From the NCBI GenBank assembly GCA_964017155.1, contig OZ024865.1:10937509-11001508 (forward strand): 64,000 bases of DNA, read 5' to 3'. Made by a program: the position numbers and the translations under genes. Source of the stretch: Oasisia sp. SBJ-2009. Lineage: Eukaryota > Annelida > Polychaeta > Sabellida > Siboglinidae. The notes below the pieces were generated by a model, which worked only from the letters and a program-made list of their open reading frames with translations, had not been told where the DNA came from and searched no databases. Each line of letters opens with the position of its first letter. Within the stretch, counting starts at the first letter, position 1. Shown here piece by piece: positions 1,765 through 59,181 of this stretch.

Positions 1765-2326
1765 GAACGAACGAACGAACGAACGAACGAACGAACGAAC
1801 GAACGAACGAACGAACGAACGAACGAACGAACGAACGAACGAACGAACGAACGAACGAACGAACGAACGAACGAACGAACGAACGAACGAACGAACGAAC
1901 GAACGAACGAACGAACGAACGAACGAACGAACGAACGAACGAACGAACGAACGAACGAACGAACGAACGAACGAACGAACGAACGAACGAACGAACGAAC
2001 GAACGAACGAACGAACGAACGAACGAACGAACGAACGAACGAACGAACGAACGAACGAACGAACGAACGAACGAACGAACGAACGAACGAACGAACGAAC
2101 GAACGAACGAACGAACGAACGAACGAACGAACGAACGAACGAACGAACGAACGAACGAACGAACGAACGAACGAACGAACGAACGAACGAACGAACGAAC
2201 GAACGAACGAACGAACGAACGAACGAACGAACGAACGAATTCATTCATTCATTCATTCATTCATTCAATCATTCATTCATTCATTCATTCATTCATTCAT
2301 TCATTCATTCATTCATACATTCATTC
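1765..2326. repeat. (GAAC)118 array switching to (ATTC)n
   Basis: Positions 1,765-2,236 are 118 uninterrupted GAAC units, preceded by degenerate GAAT units from about 1,702. At a GAATTC junction near 2,235-2,242 the array changes to ATTC units, which is GAAT on the opposite strand. The same junction exists in copy B (17,024-17,158), where the GAAC-type arm is only a few units long. Open frames on both strands here (repeats of NERT or FVRS) are translation of the microsatellite, not genes. Confidence 0.95.
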
Positions 2327-2339
2327 AGATACTTACGAT

Positions 2340-2880
2340 TGTATAACGCTTCATCTCGGGCCCGCAACGTCGCCTTGCTCAACAATCAACAGCGCAGCTT
2401 CAACATATGTCCCGAGGCTATCAAAACGTTTGCTACCAAACGTTTGTCAGGCCAATCGTTGAGTATGCCTCGACGGTATGGGACTCGTCCACAGAAAAAA
2501 CATCAACACTGGAGAACATGCAGGGACAGGCTGTACGCTTCGTGAAGAGCAACTACCGTCGCCGACACAGCAGTGTGACTACCATGCTCGAAAGTTTGAA
2601 CTGGGTGTCCCTTGCGAGCAGTCGGGCGGAAGCCAGGCTCGTATTGTTGTATCGCATTACAAACAACGTAATGGACGTAACAACATCCGCACTCTCATCC
2701 GCTCCTACACGCACCAGATGCAACACACACCGCTACTTACAACCATTCACCCGCATCGAAGCCTACAAACACTCCTTCTTTCCGAGCACCATCAAATCAT
2801 GGAACAAATTCACACAACAATTAGTTAGCAAACAATCACTCAATTCATTTAGAAGGCTTTTGCAGTCATTGCCTACATAA
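2340..2880 (+). pseudogene. CR1-like LINE reverse transcriptase, C-terminal fragment
   Basis: The translation shows the C-terminal region of a CR1-clade ORF2: a motif around CPEAIKT, then FVRPIVEYASTVWD, then AVRFVKSNYRRR and a terminal SWNKF...SLNSFRRLLQSLP ending at a stop at 2,878-2,880. The frame shifts once near 2,425, because the first part reads in another frame from the rest. RT motifs with the catalytic YxDD are absent, so the copy is 5'-truncated and the microsatellite lies directly upstream of the truncation. The same fragment occurs at 16,611-17,011, 26,400-26,580 plus 30,289-30,504 plus 31,031-31,110, always next to a GAAT array. The LINE family assignment is from memory of CR1-type proteins. 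Confidence 0.8.
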
Positions 2881-4336: not shown

Positions 4337-6699
4337 ATGGAGGAAGACAAACTGGCTCGTCTGGAAGAGATGGTGGAAACCCTGAAGCGCAACCAGCAGT
4401 CCATCAACGTCACGGTAGCTGCTCCTCCAACCCGAACTCTCCGGGCATTTTCGGGGCGTGCCTGTGAACTACACGACTGGATGGAAGACGCCCGCAATCG
4501 GTTGCGTTCCGTCCCAGCGGTCGAGAAGTTACCTTTCCTGATCGGAAGTCTAGAAGGACCTGCCCGTGCAGAAGTCAGGTATGCGCCCGAGGAAGAAAAG
4601 GACTCGGTACATAAGGTGTTCACATTACTTTTGTCTACCTTTGGGGAAAACCGTAGTAATGCACAACTAAAGAGAGAGTTGTACGAGAGAAGGCAGAGAA
4701 ACAGGGAAAGTGTTAGGGAATTCTCTCGGGCCCTGTTAGAAATCTGTGAAGGTATATGTGATAAATTGCAGAGTAAGAACGAAATGGTAATTGAAGTGTT
4801 CTGCGAGAAGCTGGTGGATATCCACGTAAAGAGAGATATGAAAACATTGGTAAGAGGTCAATCGACCATTTCCTTTAGTGCCTTGAGATCTGAAGCTATT
4901 CGTCTCGAGGAAGACGGAATGGGTAGTTCTCATGAGAATGCATGTGTCCGGGGAATTCAGGAGCCTCGCCATACCCCAGGCGAACCTAGTCCACTGGACC
5001 GAATCGCAGCACAATTAGAACTACTTGCAACAACTCAGTCGGAAATTGTTTCTTTGTTACGATTACAACAACAGGCGCCAGTGGGGGTGGTGAACCCTGA
5101 CAAACCGGAGTCATGCAGCGGAGGCGCGGTGTGTTGTGAGTGCTGTAGCCGAAGGGGTCACACCTTCGCGAGGTGCTGGAAGCGCTCTAGTGACAGGTCG
5201 CGTAATGGGGAACGATCAACAAATCGCGAATACAGAGGTCATTCGAAAGGTAGCACAGCGACTAATGCAATGCATTGTAGCCAGGTAGGACATCCTAGGT
5301 ATCGTCCCGGGCGACTTAATGCATCGGGTGATGGTCTGAGCGGGAAATCACACCCGACTGCAACGACGGAGGTCACAGTCATCGGAGAAGAAGAGACAGC
5401 GGATATCCAGCAAGTAACGGTTTTGCCGTGCGACTTACGCCAGAAGTTACTCAAAGGAACGGTCAGAGCCACCACTGCTCAAAGACGCGACATACTGGAA
5501 AATGTAGAGTCACCGGTCCTACCTAGTTTTAGGACGGGCGAGATCCAGGAAGCACAACGGACTGATCCGGTGTTGGGCCGAATCTGGCATTACATCGATC
5601 GAGGTCGAGACGCGACACGTGGAGAGAGACGGAAAGAACAACCAGCAGTAGCGAAACTGCTATTACAATGGAACCGCCTACATATCTGTTCTGGCCGCTT
5701 GTGCAGAACAATGACAGATCCCACGAGTGGAGACACAGTAAACCAGTTGTTGCTTCCAAGTTCCATGAGGAAGGAAGTATTAGAGGAATTACATGATCGG
5801 ATGGGACATCAAGGCATAGATAGGGTCGAGAAATTAGTGCGGGCAAGGTTCTTTTGGCCGAATTTACGCTCAGACATCCACAATTGGATTGCCAGGTGTG
5901 GACGTTGTAATCTAGCAAAGATGCCACATTTTAAAGTACGGACTCCTATGCATAGCATTGTCGCCAAGGAACCGTTAGAAGTATTAGCAATTGACTTCAC
6001 GATACTGGAACCCGCTAGTAACGGAATCGAGAATGTACTGGTCATGACCGATGTGTACAGTAAATTCACAATAACAGTGCCGACTAGAAACCAAACAGCT
6101 CAGACAGTGGCCAAAGCACTAGTACGTGAATGGTTTCTGCGCTACGGAGTGCCCTTCCGGATACACTCGGACCAAGGAAGATGTTTTGATGCTAAAATCG
6201 TCACGGAGTTATACAAGATCTACGCTGTCAACAAATCACGCACAACACCATATCATCCCATGGGAAACGGGCAGTGCGAAAGATATAATCGGACAATGCA
6301 CGGATTGTTACGCACTCTGACACCAGCTCAAAAGTCCAAGTGGCCAGACCACCTACCGGAACTTACCTATGCGTACAATGTAACACCTCATGCTGCCTCG
6401 GGATTTAGTCCTTTCTACTTGATGTTCGGTCGTGTTCCACGCTTGCCAATCGATATCAGATTGCACAACGACGAGACACTCCAGTCTCAAACGGTTCGTG
6501 GAACCAACATGAACTGGGTTGATTACCATCAATCTAAGTTGAAAAGCGCTTATGCTAAAGAGACGGAACAACTGGAGTTAGACAGAGGAAATCGAAAGGC
6601 GACTTATGACAAGCGTACGAGGGAAGATACACTGCAAATTGGAGACCATGTACACTTACGCAGTAGGGTGAATGGACGTAACAAAATTGGGGATGCCTG

Positions 6700-20625: not shown

Positions 20626-20945
20626 AGGTAACTCATGTTGATTGATACAAAGTGTATGTTGTGTGCATTTATCTTATGATTGTGTAAGTTGTGCAGATAG
20701 TCACCCTGTTTGTAACCTTGGATTTACATTGTTTACTCTGTAGTACCAATTACCTGCTTGCACTTATTATGAGGCAAGATCGGTAACAAAGATATACCCC
20801 TAATACACAATTTATTGAATGTGTTGCATGTTGCTAAGAAGGCCCACATATGGCCTTAAACTAATCGTGTTAAATGAGCAACGAAGCGTGATAATGTCGC
20901 AATGAGTTTAACTACAGGTGGGGTGATGAACCAGTGAAATACACT
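20626..20945 (+). repeat. 320-bp LTR-like repeat, unoccupied TTAA target
   Basis: The sequence from TAACTCATGTTGATTGATAC to AATACACTG is repeated in two pieces at 45,303-45,547 and 57,035-57,113, where an 11.5-kb element separates them at TTAA. Here the TTAA (20,870-20,873) is single and uninterrupted. Its position after a candidate polypurine tract suggests an LTR, but TG...CA ends are not clean. Confidence 0.7.
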
Positions 20946-22003
20946 GGGGATAAATGGTTTGAGTCAAATATGACTTACTAACAATACATTGACTTCATCA
21001 ATTTAGATCAACTATTTAAATCATTAGAACATTTTTATAATTGGTATCATATCGTTAAGAAACATGTTTGTCTGCACGTAGTCTAAGGTACCTATCCTGA
21101 ATATGTTACATCATCCATTATTATTAATTGGTATTTGACAGTCACAGTGTATTCATCGTCCTGTAAGCAGTAGTCTCTCCTAAGAATGAGTTTCTGACAA
21201 CGCCCTCTTCCGAGTAAAATGACAACTTCACCTGCACCATGTCAGATAAGTCTACAAAATCACTAGAACTCAAATTTACATATAAATGAATAGATGCAAA
21301 CAAATGTTATATGTTCTTATGTATTTGTCAGTATTGTCATTTCATTGTTTCAATTTGTACACATGTCTTATAGATAGATTTACACATAACATAGAGACAA
21401 ACATCGTATTGAATGAATACAAATATAATAATGTATAATAATCCGAGTGGCTCCTGTGATAGCGACTTTTGAGTCTTAGCAGGAGTCACTGACCCCAATT
21501 TCATATGTATTCTTAATTACTTATGGTGACATTTGTTCATGTGCGTATTATTGCTATTATTTAATGTAATTGTTTTGGGGTCAGAAATAAACATCTTGTT
21601 CTTGTTCTTGTTCTTGTTCCAACTTGATCACGTGGGCCGCCAGTTCAGTCTACACATATAAACCCTATATATCACGCAGCGGTCACGCACTGTTAACATT
21701 TAGGCCTAGGCCCCACAGGTGGGTTAACAAGCCGACCCATTTATTGTCCTGTAACTAGTTCACAAAGATACCCAGCAACACATGGGCATTGTCGTTTATA
21801 GGAGTACATTGTATTGTGCCATTTTCATATACCAACATACATATAGAAAGTTTGCTACAACGAAACAGTAATGTGAACATACTTTGGTTTCAAACATTTA
21901 ACTATCTTAAGTGCCCACTAACTGTGGTGACAGCTTTGTCACGCTTCGTTGCTCATTTAACACTATTAGTCTAAGGCTATATTTGGGCCTTCGAAGAAAC
22001 ATG
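20827..22003. repeat. 66-bp inverted repeats flanking about 1.05 kb
   Basis: The segment 20,827-20,890 (CATGTTGCTAAGAAGGCCC...) reappears inverted at 21,938-22,003. The right copy replaces the normal C-terminus of the sulfotransferase gene at 21,977-23,056. Whether this is a transposon with terminal repeats or a captured inverted fragment is not settled; no flanking duplication was found. Confidence 0.5.
21430..21622 (+). repeat. LINE-like 3' end with (TTGTTC)n tail
   Basis: A short hairpin-rich segment (GAGTGGCTCCTGTGATAGCG ... TAGCAGGAGTCACTGACCCC) is followed by AATAAACATCTTG and about four TTGTTC units, a form typical of non-LTR 3' ends. There is no coding part. Between 20,946 and 21,430 I see only AT-rich sequence. 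Confidence 0.45.
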
Positions 22004-23056
22004 AAACCAGTATACATCATTTTCTTTTTTTGCGCCTTTGCAAAACCCAGTTGCTTGGCTCAGCAATGCTTTGAATTTATTTAGTTCATCCCGGAAGTCG
22101 TCCGGCTCTTCAGCTATGCGCCGCCAAAGCGTCTTATTAAAGTGACTGTAAAGTACATATTCTGGATGGTTGTAACGCTTGAAATTGTTTACATAGGTCG
22201 AGTCGATCTGTTTGTCTTGATGGTTATAACTATGGAGATTACGTTTCATATAAAGGATTTCTTCTATCTTCCAACACACGAGTCGTCGAAACAGCACCAA
22301 CGACTCATCGTAATACTCCGCGATGATAACGGGGCTGAACCGACGCTGCAGAGCGTCGATCCAGTGCCGGATGTAGGTGGCGTTGTTCGTTTGGTCGGTC
22401 GTGTTCACATGGAAGCCAGTCGGTATTCCGAGTTCGAACGCCAGAGTATTGTGTGTGAAGCTAAATCTGCCCATACAGTAGTGCTTGTAATAGGGAGATG
22501 TATACATCGTCTCGTACATAGGGATTTCTCGTAGATACTCCATCAGGGGATCGGCAAAGTTAGCTAGATTCGGGAACCGGTTTCGTATTGAATAGTAGTT
22601 AAACGCGGATTTCATCCGACTGAATGGATCCCGGATGCTCGTGATGTAAACAGTGTCGTGTGGCATGACACGTGCTATGAAGTCTTCGTTGAAGACAAAA
22701 TGGTGCAAAATAACGTTAAGCGGAGTCGTGTTCGGGTTGAAACAGCGCGCCTCCAACGGGTAAGGGTAACAGAGGGTGTATCGACCGGGGCGAGGGTGAT
22801 GGATCGAGAGCTTATTGCGTCGAGCAAACCTGTAGAGGATAATTACAGTTGTTGAGGTAGCACATTTGTGGGTCTTCACGTACACAACGTTCACTCGCTG
22901 TCTCTTGCAGACCGGCGGACGATGCACCATAATGGGGACGGTGCCAACAGGGAGCAGTCCCTGGTATTGGCTGCAGAAGATGATCGCTCCAACGACAGCT
23001 CCAACGACAGCGACGCACAGAAGCCGAATCTGTAACAGAAGCATGCTTGTCTTCAT
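21977..23056 (-). pseudogene. Galactose-3-O-sulfotransferase-like gene, copy 1 (altered C-terminus)
   Basis: 359 codons from an ATG at 23,056. Members of this family move sulfate from PAPS to the 3-OH of galactose in the Golgi. Residues about 6-28 form a signal anchor, as expected for a type II Golgi enzyme. The 5'-phosphosulfate-binding loop is VYVKTHKCATST (about 58-69) and the 3'-phosphate-binding motif is TSIRDPFSRMKSAFNYY (about 139-155), both characteristic of Gal3ST enzymes. Compared with copies 2 and 3 the stem lacks about 13 residues, two codons (KK) are missing before CMGRFSF, and after DVYWF the frame passes into unrelated repeat sequence (HVSSKAQI, stop), replacing a roughly 35-residue tail. 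The core is open, so some activity cannot be excluded. There are no introns. Confidence 0.85.
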
Positions 23057-23240
23057 GCCTTATTTTTTAGTTGTATGCAGGTTAATTAATAGTCACACTA
23101 TAATGGTGTTTAGATGTATTTATTGCCGCGCCCCACGAATGAGTCTCCTCTGAGTCAGCGCAGAGAGTTAGGCATGAGAACCGAGTACGGTTTATAACCT
23201 AAATAAATTAATCCATTTAATTGATTTAGTGTATACGTAC

Positions 23241-39860: not shown

Positions 39861-40024
39861 TCTAGATGCGCGCATGCGCAGAAACGTCAATCGGAACGTT
39901 TTTAACGACCGGAAAAATGTAAGCGCGACCATCGTAGGTAGCGCTTACGTTTATCCCCTAGATACGCGCATGCGCAGAAACGTCAATCGGAAAGGTTTTA
40001 ACGATCGGAAAAATGTAAGCGCGA

Positions 40025-41078
40025 CACCGTCCCCATTATGGTGCATCGTCCGCCGGTCTGCAAGAGACAGCGAGTGAACGTTGTGTACGTGAAGACCCAC
40101 AAGTGTGCTTCCGAAACAACTCGATTTATCCTCTACAGGTTTGCTCGACGCAATAAGCTCTCGATCCATCACCCTCGCCCCGGTCGATACACCCTCTGTT
40201 ACCCTTACCCGTTGGAGGCGCGCTGTTTCAGTCCGAATACGACACCGCTTAACGTAATTTTGCACCATTTCGTCTTCAACGATGACGTCATATCACGTGT
40301 CATGCCACACAACACTGTTTACGTCACAAGCATCCGGGAACCGTTCAGTCGATTGAAATCCGCGTTTAACTTCTATTCACTGCGAAAACGGTTACCGAAT
40401 CTAGCTAACTTTGCCGAACCCCTGATGGAGTATCTACGAGACATCCCTAAGTACGAGACGATGTATACATCTCCCTATTACAAGCACTACAAGAAGTGTA
40501 TGGGCAGCTTTAGCTTCACGCACAATACTCTGGCGTTCGAACTCGGATTGCCGACTGGCTTCCACGTGAACACGATCGACCAAACGAACAACGCCGCTTA
40601 CATCCGGCACTGGATCGACGCTCTGCAGCGTCGGTTCAGCCTCGTTATCATCGCGGAGTATTACGTTGAGTCGTTAGTGCTATTTCGACGACTCATGTGT
40701 TGGAAGATAGAAGATATCCTTTATATGAAACTTAATGTCAAGAGTTATAAACATAAAGACAAGCAGATCGACTCGACCTACATAAACAATTTCAAGCATT
40801 ACAACCAACCAGAATATGTACTTTACAATCACTTTAATAACACACTTTGGCGGCGTATAGCTGAAGAACCGGACGACTTCCAAGATGAACTGAATAGATT
40901 CAAAGAATTGCTGAGCGAAGCAACTGGGTTTTGCACGGACGCAAAAGAAAATGATGTATACTGGTTTCGCTCCTCCAAGTGGAACGGAGAATTATCGATT
41001 ACAGCTAAATGGTGTGCTATGAAATTATCATCCTGGAAAGCGAGAAGTGTTGCCAACAGTAGTGTGCCTGGTTGTTGA
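40025..41078 (+). pseudogene. Galactose-3-O-sulfotransferase-like gene, copy 2, catalytic part
   Basis: Open from the transposon boundary to the stop at 41,076-41,078. The first internal ATG is at 40,038. It carries the PAPS-binding loop VYVKTHKCASETTRF, the conserved stretch YTLCYPYPLEARCF, the 3'-phosphate-binding motif TSIREPFSRLKSAFNFY, and a cysteine-containing C-terminus ending SVANSSVPGC. Without the N-terminal anchor it could not be placed in the Golgi membrane. The reading frame entering from the 5' part would be continuous if the insertion were absent, so the gene was probably intact until the transposon arrived. Confidence 0.85.
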
Positions 41079-45302: not shown

Positions 45303-45547
45303 TTAACTCATGTTAATTGATACAAAGTGTATGTTGTGGGCATTTATTTTATGATTGTGTAAGTTGTGCAGATAGTCACCTTGTTTGTAACCTTGGATTT
45401 ACATTGTTTACTCTGTAGTACCAATTACCTGCTTGCACTTATTATGAGGCAAGAACGGTGACAATGTTATACTCCTAATACACAATTTATTGAATGTGCT
45501 GCATGTTTCTAAGGAGGCCACATATGGCCTTAAACTAATCGTGTTAA

Positions 45548-45564
45548 AGATACTCAATCCACTC
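45548..45564 (+). repeat. Left terminal inverted repeat
   Basis: AGATACTCAATCCACTC directly after TTAA (45,544-45,547). Confidence 0.75.
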
Positions 45565-45921
45565 ATTCCCGTAAAAATCGTTTGCTCCTAGCGATTATTA
45601 GTCATTTCACAAAAAGCGGATGTATCAAATACTCATTAATGATTGTTTAGTTGGTTTATGCGTACATGTTACTTCATTTTTCTTAAATAAATAAAATAAA
45701 TAAGAACTATTTCGATTTTCGTTTCGACTGTATACACTAGAAACTCTATACGAAACCTAACTTTGGAAATGGAACTATGTTAGGAAACACGTCTGTTTCT
45801 TCTCGTTGGCGCGAGATCGACCCGCGTGATTGGTGCCTCGGAATCCTTCGACGCATGTGCTTGTGTTTGTTTTTCTTTCAATCTTTGGTGTGTACGTGTG
45901 GTCGCAGTTCTTTGTGCAATA

Positions 45922-48900
45922 ATGGGACGTCCACGGACGTATGCCACCAGTTCGGCGAAGAAACGAGCAAAGCAACTAAGAGAGAAACAGGTTCCGCGCG
46001 CGAGGATTTATTTAGGAAAATCGATGGATCTATGGAATAAAGCAAAAGAAACGGTTGAGCTCGGCCTCGGAGCCGGAGGCATATCAGATGCAGCCTTCGC
46101 AAAACTTCTACTCGACAGGTTAGTAATTTGTCAGCGTCAATCATTGTTATACTTTGTTGTATCAGTAAACGTATGAAATACTATAATGAAGTGGAATATG
46201 TTATGGTGAAAAACCGCGTAGATTTATTTTTGGCAATGCAGGCGATACCGATGCAGTGGCTGGGGTAATCGATGGCGGCATCGGCCTGGGCTGTGGCCAG
46301 TGTGGGATCTGTGCCTGCGCTCTTGTCTTGGTATCCCTTCGAAATGCATTATGTTAGCACTCAACCAGCAGTTTATTTTCTTTAAAATTATTACTGACAT
46401 TTCACACCATTATACAAATTTCATATTAATTTATGAATACTCAGAGTCAGATAAACAGTCACAATAAAGATGCATATGTAAGACATTTTGGAAAATGAAC
46501 ACATTGTAAAAACATTTTATTGAAAGCTGCAATCGGTAAAAAAGGTAATAAAGTAAAAAGTGCCCTGGGGGCTCGGTAACACAAGTTATTACTTATGTCC
46601 ATGCGTCTTTGTAATAATCTGAGTAGAAGACGCATCAACATGAAAATGAGCCATTCTTTTCGTAATACTTGCCAACAATATAAACTATATATATAAACAT
46701 ACTGAACATAGGTAATACATTAGGCCTTAGGATTACATAATGCAAAATCTCCATATATTTATTTAGTTACTATAACAAACAGTTTCTAAGATCTAAAAAA
46801 TGATATCAAATAGATGATATTAAAAACGGTATCCAGACATTTCGGTAAAGGACACTTTGGTAATGGACGTTTTGGTAACGGACATTTCGGTAATTGGACA
46901 TTTCGGTAATAGGACGTTTCGGTAATAGGACATTTTGGTAACAGACATTTTGGTAATAGGGCATCTTGGTAACATGCATTTTGGTAAAACCAATAAATAT
47001 TCTTTAAAGGCATTAATTAAAAGGCATTAATTTAAGATAAAAATGTATCGATAATGTAAAATTAAAATAAACAGTTGTATGTTCAGTCACATTTTAATTC
47101 AAACTCACATATATATATATATATATTATATATATATATATGTATGACATTATCTTACATGTGTCTGGATTTAAATGTGTCCTGCTAGTCACAGGTTGGC
47201 TGTAGTGGTTGACCACTCTAGCCACCACCAATGCTATTTGGAAGCCATGTTCCCTTCAGAGGCAAGCACCTTACACCATGCCTGACTGCAGGTGGGAAGC
47301 CAAGTTCCCTGTCTTCCCATCCTAATTTACAAATGGTTTAACTGACTGATATCTCAACTGGTTACCTCCTGATATGGCAGACTGGACTTAGTTGTTTTAC
47401 CGAAATGTCTTGTTACCAAAAAGTCCTGTTACCAAAAAGTCCTGTTACCAAAAAGTCCTGTTACCGAAATGTCCTGTTACCGAAATGTCAGTTACCAAAA
47501 TGTCCTTTACCAAAATGTCATGGATCCATTAAAAACATACAACATGGTGAGGACTTAACAAACATTTTGCAGTAAATATTTATCCCAAAGGTACTGTAGT
47601 TTTATCATGGGAGCTTGCAGGGTTGGCACGTTTATGTCATCTGGGCAGAAACCACGGAAGAAATATTTCTACCCATGAGCAGAAATACCTTTCTCCCCTA
47701 GCTGTGACAAGTACTTTTAGACCTCGGACTAGTAACAGTCCCTTTTACATAATAAAATCATTTAGGACTAATTATCGATAATGATGGACTACCAGCTAGC
47801 TAGAAATACTGTGCACCAGTCCCTACGGACAGTTGCCATCAGACTTGGACTCAAATTAATTTGTATTTTAAAGTGTAGAAATACTTTTTTTATAAAGTAT
47901 TTGTATTTGACCATTATGAATGAAAAGTATTTGTATTGAAATACTTTCTTAAAGTATTTCACAATTTAGATACTGACAACGTATTTAAAAAAAGTATGTT
48001 TCATGATCACATGTAATGCTTGCCAAACTGAAGGCCTTCACTGCAAATCATCTTTCAACAAACAAGTTATTTTGAATCTTCAAAATACCCATCAACTGTA
48101 ATGTAAGGTGACCTATTTAATTTTACAGACGTGGCTTATAGATTACAGTTAGAGAATGTCAGTGAGATTGCTGAGCCAAACGGCCTCTGCCATATTCGTA
48201 ACAGTAATGGAAATTTGCACATAAAGTTCTGTGAATAAGATTTCATTGACATATCATAAAATTGCTTGTATTTTATATTTGGTGTGCATTTGAAAATTAC
48301 TTGAAAATACAATCAAATACACATAAAAATGTCCAATAAAAGGTAAAGCATTGCCTGGCATAAACTGGCTCACTAAAAAGTCAGGAGTCAAGACAGAATG
48401 TTTGTCACACCTGGTCAACAGTGGGCAGGCACCACTGTGGAAATTGGCCTGCAGTGAAGGTGGTCAAACATTAGCATAAATATTTGAATGGGAAGCCATT
48501 GAATCTTATCTATAGTCATAAAGGCAGGTATTCACAGGGAAGGTGCTTTAAAGAAACCTGCTGTGTAAACATCCTGGGCAAAGACAAAGGAACCGAGGTT
48601 TCCTCTGGTGCATGGGAAGAGCTATCCACTAGTTGGTACAGTAGTGCAGATAAGGAGAGTCTAGTAAATCTGCCTGCCAATTACTCTACAGTAGGCAACA
48701 CACTTGAACCATAATGGAAAACCAGCCATGTATTTGAATCAAATTTCAAAAATGGCAGTGTAAATTAATAGTATTTCAATAAAACATTGCTGTGTATTTG
48801 AATTGGAAATTTGATTTGACCGAGTTGTATTTGCATTTTATTTGACCGAATTGTATTTGATCCCTAAATGTGTATTTGAACCCAACCCTTTTGTATTTGA

Positions 48901-51900
48901 TATGTGGACTGTCATAGGTGAAAACCACCACTTTCTATCATGAAAGCATGGTTGTTTGACGAATATTAAATGAGGCAAGCAAGTAATATTGAATAATTGT
49001 ATTTGTTTACAGATTATTGGATGTACGTGATTGATGTAACACATACTTCTACCAGTGTATAAACTATTAATTAAAGCAAAACTTGTTAAGTTCTTATTAT
49101 TTTCATAAAATCACAAAACACAAAGTGACAAACAAAAGTTAATCAAGTAAACTGCAAAGTACAATTTGATGTTCAAATTTTCTTACAATATTCTCATTCC
49201 AAATCCTCACTTATAGAAGCTGATCCATCATACAGACAACAGGGTGACTCAACAAAAGTGCAGCCAGCTTGCTGTTGCACCTAGCAATAGCAGTCCCAAC
49301 TAAAGAACAAAGGGGATACTGACACGTTAACATACATGTTCTAAATACTAACCCATCCTTTTGTCAAACAGTAGTTGATGACACTGCCAGGCTTTGTTCA
49401 CTGCTAGCTGTGTTCTCCTCTTTCACTAGAATGTTATGTAAATTTTACTTTTCAAACCTTATCTTTTTAATTTATTTTATTTAAGCTAGCATACAGTGGC
49501 AATTAGCCAGATGACATTGATTCAAATAGTTTTTTTCGGTCCAACGGACTTATGTCATCACTTTGTGTGCGCTGACCATTGTTAGCAGTCAAGCGTGTTA
49601 TTAAAAAATTTGCATACTGTATATTTTATATGCACATGAAATGTAAATTTGATTTACAAATTTGTACTTTTGGTTCTAAAATGTTGGTACATTTAAAATT
49701 TTCCTTTTTCATTCGAAAGCTTCTATGAACCTTTTCCTCTAATTTGGCATATATGTATGTCTGAGAGTATTAACAAACTAGTCATTTGTAAGGACATCTG
49801 AAGGCATTCTCAAAATGTTAAATGTGAGCAGATTGCCTGTTTCTGCAGGTCTTTTAGGAGATCTCAGGACACAGTACTCCTGTGGTGTTTGTGCAATTGG
49901 TGCTAAGTTGTGTAATTAATTACTTTGATAGGTGTTATATCAATAGCCCAGTAGAGGGCATAGGGGCTGACTTCTTAACAAATTACCTGTCCCTGACCTT
50001 GATGGGGGATTAGGGGCTGCATCAATAACCCAGCAGTTAAACTGGAAAATTTGATGCCTGTATGTTTTAAGCTTTATCTTCATGTAAGCTACCAATTTGA
50101 CATGCAAGTTGTGGTTATTTCACTGTTTGTTTATTATCTTTAAAATGATGTAACTTTTGTGTCTACTGGTATATATTGTCACCTGCAAGTGACAATTGAC
50201 ACAGAGACAAAATATACAAGTATACATTGGAAATTCATACTGCTGTTCTCACAAAAAGGTGTCTGTGTTTCTAGTCAGCTCATATGAATAACCAGAGAAA
50301 AGGCAAATTAGGTGATTACATTGAAGATACTACACAGTGACCTTGATTCACAAAACCACATGTCATTCATAATCTCACAATATAGTCCAAAGAACTTAAT
50401 GACCCATTGCTATATTACTTGACTTGTGTAACTTAATTTATTAACCTTTTTTATTTACATACATATTTCAGTAGTTTTTATATACATATTGTGAGCGCAC
50501 TGAGTAACTGTTACTTAGAGATCATGTAGTTTAAGAACTAATAATAATACTACTCCTATGAATTCATTGTTTTGTTTAACAGCTTCAACACAAAGCCACA
50601 CTTAACCTCGACACCACTGCAGCCCGCACATATGACACGATCTGTGGTTGCGCTATCAAGCATCAGTGGTCATAGCCCAGGTAGCACATTGTCACGTATT
50701 CAGTCTCTTCCTGAGGCTGGATGCAGCTCAGGACAGTTGCAACAAACGTAAGTATTTATTTATGTTTCCATGCATGCTTTTATTGCCAATGGTTTTGGCC
50801 CAATTAATTAAACTTCCACTTTAGTGAAACGCCATATCATGCATGGCATCAAAATGGGTTCCACACAAAAAAGATATGTTCAGTTGTGTTTGATTATTTT
50901 TATGTAAATATTATGTGTGTACTTGTGTGTGCTAAGACATCACAACTACTTCGTTTGGCCTGTTTCTACACACAATGTGTGAAATACATTAAATAATACA
51001 TAACACAACATTGGGTACACTGAAGTGGTGACACATTACCATAATTAAATTGTCGTTATCATGGCAGCTATTTCACAATTCTAAATTCTTGGAGTTAATC
51101 ACTACACTTTGTTGCAGTGACCCAGATGATGATGACCCATTGGGATTGGAGACTGTGGATCCTGGTGATACTACATACCACTTTGGAGATGACACATTAG
51201 AAGAGATACATAGGTACATATTTATATTGAACATATACTATTTAGTATGATTATAAATATACTTTTGCACTGCATATGGTGTTAATGTATGTTGATTATG
51301 ATGTTCACTTAAGTATTTTGAAATGATGTGAATGTAGCCAAATCAAACATTTATATTATGATGACAACTGACATATACCATTTATTCTAATTTGTATCAA
51401 CTGGTCTGGCTGAGTGGAGAGGCTGAAGATATATACATTTATATATAGATACATAAATGTGTGTGCGTGCGTGTGTGTGCCAGTAATGAACAGTTCTGTT
51501 GCTGCATTCAAACAATTCGGCTGTGTGTCTAAGCATTGTGTATACATAATGAGGGAAGAAACCAATGAAGGCATTATGTTTAAAAAAGACAACGGAGTGA
51601 CTTTGAATTACCTAAATAAATGTCATTCATAATTACAAACTCACAATATGTATGCCAAAGCCCAAAAGTAATTCAACATTATTGTAGATTAAGTAATACA
51701 TTGTGGTAAAATTGAAGTATTGATGGCAACAGTCACTTGTTTGCTTTTTAAATATAGGTGTCACATCGACATTGACTCTCTAGAGAGTGTCACCCCATGT
51801 GATATTGTCCACGACATAGAAGAGACAGTGGCTGACACTACCACCCCAGAAGAAGAGGAAACAGCTACGGCAACAACACCAGAAGAGACAACAGGGAAAC

Positions 51901-52467
51901 CTTGCTTCATTGTTTATGAAGACTGTCTGCTGGAACTGGCAAACATGAAGGTATCTAGACACTTCTGTTCTACAATCATGAAGCATAAGGGTGTCATAAC
52001 TGGAATTAATAATGCTGACTTACCAAGCCATTGAAAATGTACATGCATCACTGATGGTTTAGTTTCTAAATGATGGGATTGTTTCTAAATTGTTGGTGTA
52101 TTACATAAATCACTATGTGCCTATGTTTGAAATGTGGTGGCATTAAATTGTTTAACTTTTTCATACCGTGAGAAATAATAGGGACATCAAAGACGGCCTG
52201 GAAAACATGTTCCTTAATAAACCTTTGGGATGCGTCTAAATGTTTTTGATATATGTGGAAGTATACTTTGACATTCTTAAAGAACCTTATATGTTTTGTA
52301 GGTGAACGAATGCCTGTGTATCGATTACTGTTACTTTCTTTTGACGGTTATGCATATGTCTACTGGTATAGGTTGACAACATTTGCCAAGTTAAAGGGTG
52401 TGGAAGATCATTCAACATGAAAGTCAACCACATTGGAAGTGCTGCCGTACTTGTGTGGGTGAGTACC

Positions 52468-52562
<95 letters not shown>

Positions 52563-54274
52563 GCAGTTACTTTATGGATCATAAAGTACTGTCTGAAAAA
52601 GTGGAAGTTGTACTAAATGTACGCTTCCTGAACAACGTTCACCATTATGTGAACTTCAGGTGTGTATTTAAACAGCTTCAGTTATGCAGTGTATACAACT
52701 GTTACACTGTTTATAAAACACATTATGTATGAGCCAGTTATAAAGAATAACTCATACATTATCAGCCCAGTTAGTGTAGGTTGTCAGCATAATGTAGTTG
52801 TATGTAAAATGCAGATAATGTAATTATTGATGGCGATTGAAAACCTACAGAAAGGAAGTGCAAGTCTTCATGAAATATCATGCCCTTAGAAATGACATAT
52901 GCATTAAACTTTCAGGCACACTGGAGAGCTGGAAGCTTTTCATCACCACATCTTGATGTATGCTGCGAAACTCTTCACATTCAGGTAAATTAATCATGTA
53001 TTACATATTTTTTGTATGACTGGCTAAACGTTTGCTGAAAATCATACATAAACAGCAACATATATTATTATTGAATTTATTGGCTTTCGTGACCATTTTG
53101 TATTAACTATTATGTTCATGCTTACAAACGTGATATAAACAGTAATTCAAGGCATATTAAGTAAGAATATATTAACACATGTTCTAATGACTAGACAATA
53201 AATACAAGTCATAAACTCACATGTACATTGTAAATGTGTCATTTGAATTTTTTTACCTTACATGTAATATAACATAATGAACATAAAAAAATAATTATAT
53301 TATGATCCTTTGTTAAAAAACAAAGAAATGATTACATTAAAGTGTAGTTATTGCTTACAACAATTTGTATATAATGAAAAATTATTGACTAAGCAAACAG
53401 TATTGATTGCGACATTGTAAAATATACTGTGAGAAGGTAAAAAAATAAATTAATATACTATAAAATAACATAAATTGGTGATAATGTAAAAAAATTAAAA
53501 TGCAAATAATTAAATACACATTGTAAACATACAAAAACATTATAATCAGTATATAAAGAAATTGTTGCGACAAAGTTCACTGACATCTCTCGTATCTTAC
53601 AGCTACCCGGTGTACGTCGCCAGAACGCAGCTGGCTGCAATAGATTTTCAAAAGCACAAGGACCGACCGTACCGCTTGAATGCTGCAGGAGAAATGATGT
53701 GAGTATTTCCAGTTACATTTATATTAATTAAGTGTGTAGTGAAATTAATATATAAATTTAGAAAAAAATACTGGTACACACAAATTATCACAGCAATACT
53801 ATTTGTGTAAAAGTATAAATAGTACAAAGTTGATCAATACGGTTCATAATCAACCATGGAACTGCTACAAAACACACAAAGTGAACATTCTGAAGTGTCA
53901 TGAATGTTGGTAACCAATGTTTGTACATAACGTTAACCCACTACTATTGAAGTATCGTTACAGAAATCATACCACAGTTATTAAAATAGCTTTGTCTTAA
54001 TTACAGGTACAAACGGATGTACAGTAAGAAATCAGGAAACTGGTACGCTGTACCAATCAAGACGCCAAAAACATACAATTACATCATAGAGATGCAGATG
54101 GATGCAGTACGAAGGAGGATGGCTGACACAGAACTTGTCACGAGGCGTCGCAAACTGATGGCGGAGGACCCACGCAGGATAAGCAGAACGATGGCACCAA
54201 CCGCTCCACCACCGACTAGCGAACTAGTGAGGCGTCACAGCTCCCGGATGACCAGGGGTGGTGAGTCACGCTAG
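45922..54274 (+). CDS. Kolobok-like transposase-derived gene, nine putative exons, core missing
   Basis: Exons inferred from open frame, GT-AG junctions and phase: 45,922-46,118; 50,583-50,747; 51,118-51,213; 51,758-51,950; 52,372-52,458; 52,567-52,659; 52,916-52,984; 53,603-53,698; 54,008-54,274. Phases agree at every junction except exon 5 to 6. The start ATG at 45,922 gives MGRPRTYATSSAKKRAKQ, a basic N-terminus. Exon 3 is acidic (DPDDDDPLG). Exons 4-5 carry LLELANMK and C-x4-C with HIGSAAVLVW, like the zinc-binding region of Kolobok-type transposases. Exon 6 gives YFMDHKVLSEKVEVV, like the strand after the first catalytic Asp. Exons 7-9 give HTGELEAFHHHILMYAAK (Glu in the position of the third catalytic residue), YVARTQLAAIDF and NWYAVPIKTPKTYNYI. 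Both catalytic aspartates are absent. About 420 residues in all. Family is recalled, not searched. Confidence 0.7.
46836..47520. mobile_element. Non-autonomous element with inverted tandem-repeat arms
   Basis: The left arm (46,836-46,986) has about nine units like GGTAATAGGACATTTC. The right arm (47,394-47,520) has about eight inverted units (CTGTTACCGAAATGTC). The middle 400 bp has a short TA palindrome at 47,110-47,145. It lies inside intron 1 of the transposase-like gene. Confidence 0.65.
47830..48890. mobile_element. Possible non-autonomous element in intron 1
   Basis: Both borders have related sequences read inward (AGACTTGGACTCAAATTAATTTG and GGGTTGGGTTCAAATACAC), rich in TTTGTATTTGA-type motifs, similar to hAT-type MITEs. 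No target duplication was found. The open frame at 48,484-48,714 is unremarkable. Confidence 0.35.
52372..52458 (+). CDS. Exon 5: half zinc finger, followed by a TA array
   Basis: 29 codons between TATAG and TGG/GTGAGT. The motif ICQVKGCGRSF...VLVW would be followed in relatives by a C..GH...W block completing a zinc finger. Instead a TA array (52,472-52,560) follows directly, and the next open exon needs a different phase. At least one exon seems to have been lost here. Confidence 0.6.
52472..52560. repeat. (TA)n array at the lost-exon junction
   Basis: Pure TA between exons 5 and 6 of the transposase-like gene. Confidence 0.95.
54008..54274 (+). CDS. Exon 9: transposase-like C-terminus
   Basis: 89 codons after TTACAG, joining phase-2 to ATGAT of exon 8. 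It contains YKRMYSKKSGNWYAVPIK and an arginine-rich, proline-containing tail (RRHSSRMTRGGESR) ending with TAG at 54,272-54,274. Its last 9 bp overlap the coding end of the minus-strand gene. Confidence 0.75.
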   Translation, partial: YKRMYSKKSGNWYAVPIKTPKTYNYIIEMQMDAVRRRMADTELVTRRRKLMAEDPRRISRTMAPTAPPPTSELVRRHSSRMTRGGESR

Positions 54275-55842
54275 CCGGCTCACCTGAAATCCTGTGTACA
54301 GGCCGTTCGCGCTGGGGAATCTGTCACGGATTCGGCAGACGACACAGCTTGGAATAACTCGCCGGACATTTGCGCCAAGCCGGCCATGCCGCCACAGCAC
54401 AAAATGACGGTACGCAGCATGACGAAGGGCTGCAGTGTCATGTCCGGGATCCTGCGCAAAGATCTCTGCCCAGTACGCCATATTTATTTGAAGCACAAGG
54501 GGCTCCAGGCATACCAGTTCAATCTCCTGCAAAGATAAAAATGTTATGAGTAATTGGCCATTATAATGTTGTACGGTAAATGTGGAGTATTCATTGTGGT
54601 AATTAGCCTTGATTAGCCAGACTCAGTACTTTTTAGCCCCTCAACTCCACCTGGTAGATTTATGCTCTGCAGATCTTACCCCAGTATAGGATAGAGACGC
54701 TGATTCCTGCTTGCACATTTTATGCGAGCAGTGAATAGTACACAGGGGATTGTGTCACAGGTACATAAGGGGGTATACAGTAGTATTGTACAGTGTGGTG
54801 GAAATTACCTATTTTTATCATATGAGGTCTCTGTCATTAAATTACATTTCATTTGTAATTATTTTAGCTACACTCAACAATATACATAAGTAGCAAACTG
54901 AATAGAACATTTATTTTTCTAACAACATATCTCAGTTTTTTGACATTTCAATGTGCTGCCTGAATGTAAAGGTTGAATAATCATGATAAATGTAAAGCCA
55001 ACATGTTTAAGGTGGTGTTATGCTAGTAGTTATATGTAATAGAATGTCGTTTTTAGGAAGTATTGGAAGAATGTTCCACCTGTGATTAATGAAAGATAAG
55101 ACACATTTCAGGGTTCATTACTAAATTATTTATGGATATTTGTTCCTTTAGAAACAAAAGCATTCTAATTACACAAGTGTAATGTGCTTAACTAGTGTTT
55201 CTTTGTTACAATTCAGTGTTAAGTACTCATGGGTCTTTGCGAAATGCAGTGCTGTAACCCACAGCATAGCCTTTCGATGTCTGTCGCAGACACACCACTG
55301 GGGGTGGTTACTGGTGGCTGGTGTTGGTGGTGGGGGGTTGGGGTCCCCAGCTTGCATTGCATCCAGGGCATCAAATACGATGCCTGGATGGTCTGTTATG
55401 ATTGAATGCACCAAACGGCGCATCGCTGTAATGTCCAATTGCTGAACCATTTCCTGTGTAAATGAATGCAAAAATATGTATGTACTACATGGAAGAATCA
55501 CCATTGTACTAATGATTTACACACACGCAATGGAAAAACTATAAAAAAAATTGCTTCAATGAATATTTATGGATGTGATGTTTATGTGAAATTGTTTTAA
55601 TAAAATTAAAAGTATAAATGTCCTATATAAGTACCTATGCTTATTAATATATATATATATATATGTGCTTATTAAAATTGTAAAATCTATTACGGTTAAT
55701 TGTTGTATGTGATATTTAATATTACCTCAGTTGAACGAATACGTGCGTCCTGTAATTGTTGTATTCGTTCAGCATCTATTGTGCTGAATCTCCCTCTAAC
55801 TCCTCTCCCTCCTCTCGTCCTAACTCGGTTGCGGGGTGGCAT
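54266..55842 (-). CDS. P2X7-type C-terminal ('ballast') domain protein
   Basis: Coding exons on the minus strand: 55,842-55,726 (ATG after TAAACAG; MPPRNRVRTRGGRGVRGRF, AT-hook-like basic start, then ERIQQLQDARIRSTE), a middle exon starting at 55,453 after TTTACACAG, and a last exon 54,526-54,266 after CTTTGCAG. The middle exon has LVHSIITDHPGIVFDALDAM, a proline run and PQWCVCDRHRKAM. Its donor is uncertain: TGG/GTTACA near 55,246 or CTA/GTTAAG near 55,190 both keep phase 0. The last exon has IELVCLEPLVL, LRHAAYRHFVLWRHGRLG, RRVIPSCVVCRIRDRFP and LYTGF, the hallmarks of the P2X7 receptor cytoplasmic C-terminal zinc- and GDP-binding domain. There are no membrane segments, so it is not a channel. 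The Cys-Cys pair expected between WC.C and the last block is not seen and may lie in an unrecognised exon. Function in the element is unknown. Confidence 0.75.
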
Positions 55843-56727
55843 CTGTTTACATAAAAAGGCATGGATGAACTTAATAACATGTTCACTAAACAATAATTTA
55901 GTACTGCATATTCCACAAATACTTTCTCAGTTGTTATGACAACTCACACATTTGGATTATTACACATGAACATCTAAACTTTGTCATTTGAAAGTGTTCA
56001 CTGGAAGCCAATTTAAACATTACATATAGGCATGCTGGTAGTTGTATAACACTACTTGAAATGTTTGCATAATTAAAATACAAAGCTACATAATTGCATT
56101 AATACAAAATATCGTAACTAAAATGTTCAACATTTTAACACGCGCACACTTGATATGTGATTACATATTCACTACTACCGACGCAGTGGTAATTACACAG
56201 GCCGCCAGTACAAGTGATGACCCAATGTTAATGAACAGGGCGATCTTTCATTTTCTTATCTAACAACATACAGCCGCCAAACGTCTCCTCACATATGTTG
56301 TATACAACAACACACATAGGGTTACAAAATTAAACCATATTATTGAGAAAAAAAGAAAAAAAATCGCGCAAAACTCCGTGGCAACTCGACATCATCGCCG
56401 CCGACGGCAGGACGAAGTGAAGTGTAGCTCGTACTGTGATCACCGTAATATCGGTACTGTTACGACGGGCGACGATTGCCAGCAGTGTACGGGTAATATC
56501 TGGGGCTAAGGTGTATCAAACATGTGTTTGGCGGCTGTAACACTAAGATTTAGGGGCCGTTTTCATGCTTAGCTTAGCCCTACGTCAGAAAGTAAATGAT
56601 CGCCATGACTGGCACATAACTCGCAATTATTATTAATATTGACTAATTCATGATGAATTAATATTCCATTATCCATCGTACATCTTTATATTATCAATCG
56701 TGACTATAATACGTAGTTATTACGTAC

Positions 56728-56920
56728 CTTCCACTCGACCTATCTCCGAAGCACGTGCTCGCTCTTCCCGGTTGTTGATGTTTGCGTAAGCTTGCCTGGA
56801 TGTTTTGGTCTCGTATAAACCACGTGACAAAAAAAGCATAGGACGACGGCAGATGCTGGTTGTTTCGACAGTTATACCCGGTGTAACGGCGATTCTTTTT
56901 TCATGATAAAAAAATGACAA
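56728..56920 (-). promoter_or_regulatory. Putative 5' non-coding exon and promoter region of the P2X7-domain gene
   Basis: A strong donor (GTGGAAG/GTACGT) at 56,728 on the minus strand could splice to the acceptor just before the ATG at 55,842. The 66-codon open frame here (SFFYHEKRIAVTPG...) would be out of frame with the next exon, so I read it as 5' untranslated. The start of transcription is not determined. Confidence 0.45.
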
Positions 56921-57017
56921 ATACGCATTCTAAAAAATGTCTGACTATGCATACTAGTTAAACTATTAACACTTTACACATTTGGTGACAAAAGAACCAG
57001 TTTGGCGATTAGCAAAC

Positions 57018-57034
57018 GAGTGGAGGAAGTACCT
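57018..57034 (-). repeat. Right terminal inverted repeat
   Basis: Read on the minus strand AGGTACTTCCTCCACTC, directly before TTAA (57,035-57,038). Confidence 0.75.
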
Positions 57035-57113
57035 TTAAATGAGCAACGAAGCGTGACAATGTCGCAGTCAGTTTAGCTACAGGTGGGGTGATGAACCAGT
57101 GAAATACACTGAA
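57035..57113 (+). repeat. Right part of the split LTR-like repeat
   Basis: TTAAATGAGCAACGAAGCG to AATACACTG, matching 20,870-20,945. The left part is at 45,303-45,547. Confidence 0.8.
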
Positions 57114-57774: not shown

Positions 57775-58980
57775 TCAACAACCAGGAACACTACTGTCGG
57801 CAACACTTCTCGCTTTCCTGTGTGAAAATTTGTTTCCACACCACGCAGGTGTAATCGAAAAATTTCCGTTCCACTTGGAGGAGCGAAACCAGTGTACATC
57901 ATTTTCTTTTGCGTCCGTGCAAAACCCAGTTGCTTCGCTCAGCAATTCTTTGAATATATTCAGTTCATCCCGGAAGTCGTCCGGTTCTTCAGCGATGCGC
58001 CGCCAAAGCGTCTTATTAAAGTGATTGTAAAGTACATATTCTGGTTGGTTGTAACGCTTGAAATTGTTTACGTAGGTCGAGTCGATCTGCTTGTCTTTAT
58101 GTTTATAACTCCTGACATTACGATTCATATAAAGGATATCTTCTATCTTCCAACGCATGAGTCGTCGAAGCAGCACCAGCGACTCATCGTAATACTCCGC
58201 GATGATAACAAGGCTGAACCGACGTTGCAGAGCGTCGATCCAGTGCCGGATGTAGGTGGCGTTGTTCGTTTGGTCGGTCGTGTTCACGTGGAAGCCAGTC
58301 GGCAATCCGAGTTCGAAAGCCAGAGTATTGTGCGTGAAGCTAAATCTGCCCATACACTTCTTGTAGTGCTTGTAATAGGGAGATGTATACATCGTCTCGT
58401 ACTTAGGGATGTCTCGTAGATACTCTATCAGGGGATCGGCAAAGTTAGTTAGATTCGGTAACCGGTTTCGTATTGAATAGAAGTTAAACGCGGATTTCAT
58501 CCGACTGAATGGATCCCGGATGCTTGTGATGTAAACAGTGTCGTGAGGCATGACACGTGATATGACGTCATCGTTGAAGACAAAATGGTGCAAAATAACG
58601 TTCATCGGAGTCCTGGTCGGATTGAAACAGCGCGCCTCCAACGGGTAAGGGTAACAGAGGGTGTATCGACCACGGCGAGGGTGAGAGGTCGATAGCTTAT
58701 TGCGTTCAGCAAACCTGTCGAGGAAAAATCGAGTTGTTGAGGTAGCACACTTGTGGGTCTTCACGTACACAACGTTCACTCGCTGTCTCTTGCAGACCGG
58801 CGGTTGATGCACCACGACGGGGATGGTGCCAACGCGGTCCACCAGTGGCAATGTGTCGGTGACGTCATATGACTGGAGAAGTCCCTGGTATTGGCTGCAG
58901 AAAAAGATCACTCCAACGACAGCCCCAAAGACAGCGACGCACTGAAGCCAAGTCTGCAACAGAAGTATGCTTGTGTTGAT
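57775..58980 (-). pseudogene. Galactose-3-O-sulfotransferase-like gene, copy 3 (start codon lost)
   Basis: The longest and otherwise least damaged copy. At the position of the ATG in copies 1 and 2 (here 58,980-58,978) the codon is ATC, and the next codon is AAC instead of AAG. The frame is open from there to the stop; a 394-codon reading can only begin at a TTG (58,959). Present are the signal anchor, the complete stem with QSYDVTDTLPLVDRVGT, the loop VYVKTHKCATSTTRF, the motif TSIRDPFSRMKSAFNFY and the C-terminus ending SVADSSVPGC. The first in-frame ATG downstream lies after the PAPS loop. Translation from a non-ATG codon cannot be excluded. Intronless. It faces copy 2 tail to tail. Confidence 0.85.
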
Positions 58981-59181
58981 GCCTTATTTTTATTTGTATA
59001 CAGGTTATTTAATGGTTACACTATAATTGTGTTTAAATGTATTTATTATTATTAATTAATTAATTAATCATGTTATTATAAGTTTAGTCAAATAATCATA
59101 GGGAACGTGTTTTAAAGTTTTAAGTTATATACATTTATTTTATACATGCATATCTGTATTTTGAGTAAATTATAATTATAA

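Follow-up and report, generated by a model that had tools for sequence, protein, structure and literature searches.

According to the available excerpts of Kojima & Bao (2022, PMC9587614), Kolobok transposons have TTAA target-site duplications and termini of the form 5'-RR ... YY-3', and elements of the Kol0 lineage, found in diverse animals, encode a DDE transposase together with KolX as their standard second protein. The same excerpts give KolX the fold of the cytoplasmic 'ballast' of P2X7, derive P2X7 from a fusion of a P2X4-like gene with KolX, and mention Kolobok lineages without KolX as well as a few piggyBac families that encode a KolX-like C-terminus. The ancient ballast domain and stand-alone proteins (nanor-type) were described by Rump et al. 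(2020, PMC7016195), and the string 'transpos' is absent from its main text. Within the literature searched, the word KolX occurred only in PMC9587614, and a search by general terms found no publication on the Kol0 family described below.

We analysed a window of 64,000 nucleotides, which is the whole stretch of DNA under study, together with its 764-Mb genome. The element found in it is very probably an internally deleted, non-autonomous copy of a young Kol0-type Kolobok family whose full-length form carries two genes. TTAA duplications flank all nine elements read end to end, an empty site has a single TTAA, the termini are AG...CT, and the second protein is a KolX with the P2X7 ballast. The catalytic residues of the superfamily occur in a long copy, and the core part is deleted in the window copy. 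No long terminal direct repeats of the KolobokP kind (~450 or 660 bp) were detected between the element ends by blastn self-comparison, and the gene on the complementary strand, where KolobokP has a His-Me finger nuclease, is KolX with P2RX7_C as its only Pfam match. Compared by published description, as far as the excerpts go, Kol0 elements such as Kolobok-1_XT are alike in TTAA, RR...YY, DDE transposase with DxxH, and KolX. The window family differs in being a new family in another genome, with few full-length copies and an abundant subfamily that has one 3,144-bp deletion in common and whose KolX splice donor is damaged.

A first-pass annotation of the window had reported the pairing of a transposase-like gene with a P2X7-type gene and knew of no description of it. 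One exists, as the excerpts of Kojima & Bao (2022, PMC9587614) already contain Kol0 transposase with KolX; its central idea is therefore not new, and the mobile source it suggested for the receptor's domain is a published conclusion of that work. It had also suggested that stand-alone P2X7-type proteins may be partly cargo of such transposons. The gene is indeed part of a transposon, but 'cargo' is doubtful because in PMC9587614, as far as the excerpts go, KolX is the second protein that Kol0 elements regularly encode.

Transposon boundaries and empty site

The transposon measures 11,487 bp, with TTAA immediately outside each end (Table 1). The left end AGATACTCAATCCACTCATT and the reverse complement of the right end AGGTACTTCCTCCACTCGTT are identical at 15/20 positions. 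This match is weak by itself, because 65 of the 53,355 TTAA pairs compared within the repeat-rich window, the pair 45548/57034 included, score 15/20 or more. The ends were settled by an empty site in the same window, where 45304-45547 and 57035-57111 align across one TTAA with 20629-20946 at ~95% identity, and by the recurrence of the same TTAA-flanked ends elsewhere. The elements with TTAA on both flanks comprise the window copy, seven short copies and one long copy, and TTAA also lies outside six additional right ends in the genome. The insertion is exact, and 45548-57034 is confirmed as a DNA transposon between TTAA duplications; the TTAA at both ends and the imperfect terminal inverted repeats reported in the first-pass annotation were thus upheld.

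Table 1 Features of the transposon and its empty site in the window
Feature	Position	Strand	Basis or remark
Paralogous empty site, two flanks meeting at a single TTAA	20629..20946	+	Alignment within the window
Left TTAA target-site duplication	45544..45547	.	End comparison and empty site
Left terminal inverted repeat, first letters AG	45548..45567	+	Left 553 bp recurs in the genome, at least 36 matches at 98-100%
Transposase exon 1 (N-terminus)	45922..46118	+	Gene model
Transposase exon 2	50583..50747	+	Gene model
Transposase exon 3	51118..51213	+	Gene model
Transposase exon 4	51758..51950	+	Gene model
Transposase exon 5 (corrected end)	52372..52458	+	Gene model
Junction of the 3,144-bp internal deletion	52600..52601	.	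Core exons with the first two catalytic residues gone
Retained transposase exon with the last catalytic residue, E in HTGELEAFHH	52916..52984	+	Gene model
Transposase exon (C-terminal part)	53603..53698	+	Gene model
Last transposase exon with stop	54007..54274	+	Gene model
KolX exon 3 with stop (C-terminal P2X7 ballast)	54266..54526	-	P2RX7_C E 3.5e-17 on the enclosing ORF
KolX exon 2 (zinc-cysteine part)	55231..55453	-	20-bp deletion between WCVC and CCG; donor AT, not GT
KolX exon 1 (start codon, RG-rich)	55726..55842	-	Gene model
Right terminal inverted repeat, element's last letters CT	57015..57034	-	Right end recurs in the genome
Right TTAA target-site duplication	57035..57038	.	End comparison and empty site

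Inside the long first intron of the transposase gene, 46827-46987 and 47397-47525 form inverted repeats of short units with arms of ~120 bp that are 85% alike, perhaps a nested element. The window also contains three galactose-3-O-sulfotransferase paralogues (Pfam PF06990) at 21977-23059 (-), 40002-41078 (+) and 57775-58983 (-). The transposon lies within a flank belonging to one of the copies of the duplicated sulfotransferase unit, adjoining the repeat TTAAATGAGCAACGAAGCGTGA, which occurs three times in the window.

Transposase gene in the window copy and in long copies

As the first-pass annotation had described, a spliced gene begins near each end of the element, and the two run towards each other. 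Their stop codons lie at 54272-54274 (+) and 54266-54268 (-), so the coding ends of the transposase and KolX overlap by 9 bp. Its description of the element as complete is right for the ends only, as the transposase is without its catalytic core, KolX is frameshifted and a splice donor is gone. On the plus strand, the window copy has eight open exons for the N-terminal and C-terminal parts of a transposase-like protein. This remnant, submitted with three X at the deletion junction, matched no family in Pfam; the homologue-search query carried a run of X there. A reading frame joining the two parts across the deletion was considered and rejected, since the corrected end of exon 5 puts canonical splicing out of frame.

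Relative to the window copy, the long copy on C10 (14,607 bp) carries 3.1 kb more DNA, placed at window position 52600/52601 and encoding the core exons with the motifs GDGRNDSPGH, VTDAH and DIWH; the deletion spares the exon that encodes the last catalytic residue. Its spliced transposase has 13 exons, is open through 695 codons and contains D343, D410, D431xxH434 and E558. Its identity to the homologues P0011 and P0013 is 38% and 37%, respectively; D343, D410, D431 and E558 are invariant in both, and H434 is replaced by L in P0013. The residues D, D, D, H and E occupy the five checked positions in 62 of 84 aligned homologues, the other 22 being fragments or having changes or gaps. In the region of the Kolobok zinc finger (C/DxxH to the last E), C508 and H510 are invariant in the three sequences compared, and no full finger was delineated. 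The sole Pfam match of the long-copy transposase was Mutator-like transposase at E 0.018, below the cut-off, and P0011 matches the same family at E 2.1e-12. The core exons are open in all four long copies of 14.6 kb, one of which (L040) has H replaced by L in the DxxH motif. A protein from the Ridgeia piscesae annotation (P0010) showed 98% identity across 16% of the transposase query, which makes a siboglinid tubeworm the likely host of the family.

KolX gene and its damage in the short copies

The window KolX protein, with its exons joined and X placed across the frameshift, matched Pfam P2RX7_C at E 2.2e-25 and PDB P2X7 chains at E 8.1e-13; the corresponding values for the open KolX of the long copy were 7.5e-28 and 7.7e-13. 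KolX of the long copy consists of 206 aa encoded by three exons, with P2RX7_C covering nearly the whole protein. P2RX7_C over KolX and the alignment of KolX to P2X7 466-592 resemble the P2X7 ballast domain and nanor-type proteins in the available part of PMC7016195. KolX differs from the P2X7 receptor in lying inside a transposon and in having no match to the P2X ion-channel domain, P2RX7_C being the only Pfam match at E up to 0.001. These matches firmly support the predicted P2X7-type identity of the minus-strand gene, in agreement with the first-pass annotation. The predicted structure of the KolX homologue P0007, obtained together with seven others, had a mean pLDDT of 43.7, too poor for use.

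In the window copy, a 20-bp deletion lies between the WCVC and CCG motifs. Of the other 24 copies that were read, 23 keep this segment, and in L047 it went with a larger deletion. The KolX exons are open in 21/25 copies, including three of the four long ones, and are broken in the window copy, L047, L054 (one stop) and the long copy L056 (-7 bp). The donor of intron 2 is GT in 4/4 long copies and AT in 19 of the 20 readable short copies, with GT kept in one short copy (L044); L047 is left out of the readable set because its larger deletion takes the site away. Open exons could be taken as a sign that the gene has been kept, but for the short copies the AT donor overturns this reading.

Copies in the genome and origin of the short form

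The left 553 bp had at least 40 matches in the genome, and the right 553 bp at least 41; both counts are lower bounds, as the best 40 candidates were scored per end. Among the matches listed, a correctly oriented right end was found for 33 of the 36 close left ends (98-100% identity). The 33 resulting elements measure 11.35-12.16 kb (26 elements), 14.57-14.67 kb (four) and 5.8, 13.1 and 15.8 kb; the 13.1-kb element has a split right end, the last piece of which is 16.3 kb away from the left end. Core DNA ~100% identical across the whole query occurs at only four places in the genome, which are the four long copies, plus a 52-bp fragment. The full-length element is ~14.6 kb, with the transposase (13 exons) and KolX (three exons) on opposite strands and their 3' ends overlapping. 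Both genes are open in at least one long copy, that on C10, which was read end to end.

The same 3,144-bp deletion is common to 8/8 short copies aligned, and these copies differ pairwise by a mean of 0.17-0.26% outside gapped parts, indicating that the deletion arose once and that the short form spread recently. The transposase exons of the eight copies contain no indels. Segregating sites number 7/1,161 in exons and 57/6,504 in introns, and we draw no claim of constraint from them. The locus represents a new Kol0 family with few full-length and many internally deleted copies, the latter probably moved in trans. Ac/Ds-type sets likewise comprise a few full-length autonomous copies and many deletion derivatives with the same ends. 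They differ in transposase superfamily, and movement in trans is a deduction for the window family.

Extent of the transposase-KolX pairing

Among the matches listed, KolX was present inside 33/33 elements with both ends, and its C-terminal exon lay within 17 kb downstream of 34/40 left ends, corresponding to 34/36 close and 0/4 divergent ones. A P2RX7_C profile search of the genome yielded 95 exon matches. Of the 17 DNA matches to the core, nine have a KolX match within 12 kb, namely the four long copies of the window family, four loci that belong to a second family (75% DNA identity) and one fragment; the remaining eight, which have none, comprise five at 81%, two at 87% and one fragment. 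At the 75% locus that was read (L061), transposase exons are present, the last of them with one in-frame stop, the KolX exons are open, and the two genes converge, with ~35 bp between the ends of their matches. The 81% locus that was read (L060) is decayed, with a stop, altered motif residues and no KolX match, and all three divergent copies read have transposase pieces and no KolX match. In public data, 4/9 KolX homologues extend into sequence antisense to the last exon of the transposase, in one case by just 13 residues.

The transposase-KolX pairing is real, and it is not universal among relatives, some of which are without KolX. The search of the genome with both ends, advised in the first-pass annotation, bears out its claim that the P2X7-type gene belongs to the transposon. 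In the profile searches it also advised, KolX matched P2RX7_C and the long-copy transposase gave the sub-threshold Mutator match. It had further held that related transposase loci lacking the P2X7-type gene would make the pairing a chance nested insertion; this test did not refute the pairing, although such relatives exist (the 81% and 87% loci and the four divergent left ends).

Alternative explanations

A chance insertion of the transposon, adjoining or enclosing an unrelated host gene that encodes a P2X7-type domain, would agree with the 24/58 KolX C-terminal-exon matches in the genome that lie outside the window family, and with the divergent copies, in which KolX had no match in 3/3 read and in 4/4 by profile search. 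The evidence of the copies is against it: KolX recurs in every two-ended element and downstream of 34/36 close left ends (among the matches listed), lies near 4/4 core matches of the second family, and in 4/9 public homologues continues into the antisense of the transposase exon. Chance nesting was therefore rejected for the window family, and we give it practically no credence. An element of piggyBac, the other TTAA superfamily, with a KolX-like gene would account for the TTAA duplication. Homologue P0004 joins DDE_Tnp_1_7 to a P2RX7_C piece, which agrees with the few piggyBac families with a KolX-like C-terminus in the excerpts of PMC9587614. Nevertheless, neither the window exons and ORFs given to Pfam nor the long-copy transposase matched DDE_Tnp_1_7, the termini AG...CT obey the Kolobok rule, and the closest homologues are of the other type, P0011 matching Mutator-like transposase. 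On these grounds piggyBac membership was rejected as highly improbable. The short form might also have been put to new use, with the truncated transposase (N-terminal part) and KolX serving as a repressor or host protein. The absence of indels in the transposase exons of eight short copies fits this idea, but it is expected at such youth, and sites segregate in exons as well as introns. Moreover, canonical splicing across the deletion breaks the reading frame, and nearly all readable short copies are without the KolX donor, which makes new use improbable.

KolX could be passenger DNA that has no part in transposition and is kept by riding a successful transposon, a reading that we consider possible but rather doubtful. 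The abundant short subfamily spread although 19/20 readable copies are without the intron-2 donor, so KolX is not needed in cis, and Kolobok lineages without KolX are mentioned in the excerpts of PMC9587614. However, the same argument covers the transposase, which was likewise lost in cis. In addition, all four full-length copies keep the donor, three of them have open KolX exons, and the excerpts report KolX for the Kol0 lineage of diverse animals.

Proposed mechanism and role of KolX

The favoured reading remains a two-gene Kol0-type family with internally deleted derivatives. The boundaries, TTAA duplication, empty site, copy numbers, shared deletion, gene structures and sequence relationships were observed directly. 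From these products, we infer a cut-and-paste reaction in which the transposase of the full-length copies would recognise the ends, cut the element out and paste it at TTAA. Short copies, having no catalytic transposase of their own, would be moved in trans. As the short subfamily is damaged in both genes, its spread presumably relied on proteins from elsewhere, most simply from the long copies, some of which may be inactive (the KolX frame is broken in L056, and L040 has the H to L change).

The least certain step is that KolX would serve the element as an accessory protein and not be cargo that it captured. This is favoured over pure cargo because 4/4 long copies keep the donor and because the arrangement occurs in the second family and in other species; this preference is tentative, as the short copies spread although their own KolX gene is not intact. 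KolX might even take an active part in Kolobok transposition, either as a subunit or as a regulator. In that case the zinc-binding tail of the P2X7 receptor would have begun as a transposition cofactor, and this young family would be a natural two-component system for testing the role of KolX, based on four full-length copies that keep the KolX donor and many derivatives damaged in both genes. The origin of the P2X7 tail from a transposon gene has already been proposed. Added here are a recently spread family with exact ends, at least one long copy whose two genes are open, and deletion derivatives to match, with which the role of KolX is testable, and the two-gene unit in two families of one genome.

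Related genes and homologues

Among the 24 KolX C-terminal-exon matches outside the window family are those of the second family, of a tandem cluster (L058) and of a group adjoining a THAP-type gene in the one case read (L059). At L058 (C12:34933500-34938500), three tandem units of ~1.4 kb each contain KolX-like exons and are possibly stand-alone duplicated genes. L059 (C5:9142500-9147500) contains a KolX-like gene and an ORF with a THAP domain (Pfam THAP E 3.3e-16) in convergent orientation, the two lying at 1891-2486 (+) and 4344-4928 (-); this is perhaps another Kolobok-type family with a THAP transposase. Several other genome matches cover only positions ~145-192 of the P2RX7_C profile.

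Among the transposase homologues, the deposited gene model of P0012 (Ridgeia piscesae NP493_968g00004) combines transposase pieces with a glutamate-receptor domain and a reverse transcriptase, which is most probably an artefact of annotation. Thirteen percomorph-fish proteins have the transposase with 2-13 C2H2 zinc fingers behind it (P0040, P0051, P0063, P0064, P0067, P0071, P0073, P0078, P0080, P0082, P0084, P0086 and P0089). They may form a fusion gene family, a gene-model artefact being possible as well. A catalytic residue is changed in five of them, the first D to G in P0051 and the second D to G in P0063, P0078, P0086 and P0089, and five of the 13 come from Micropterus salmoides with neighbouring LOC numbers.
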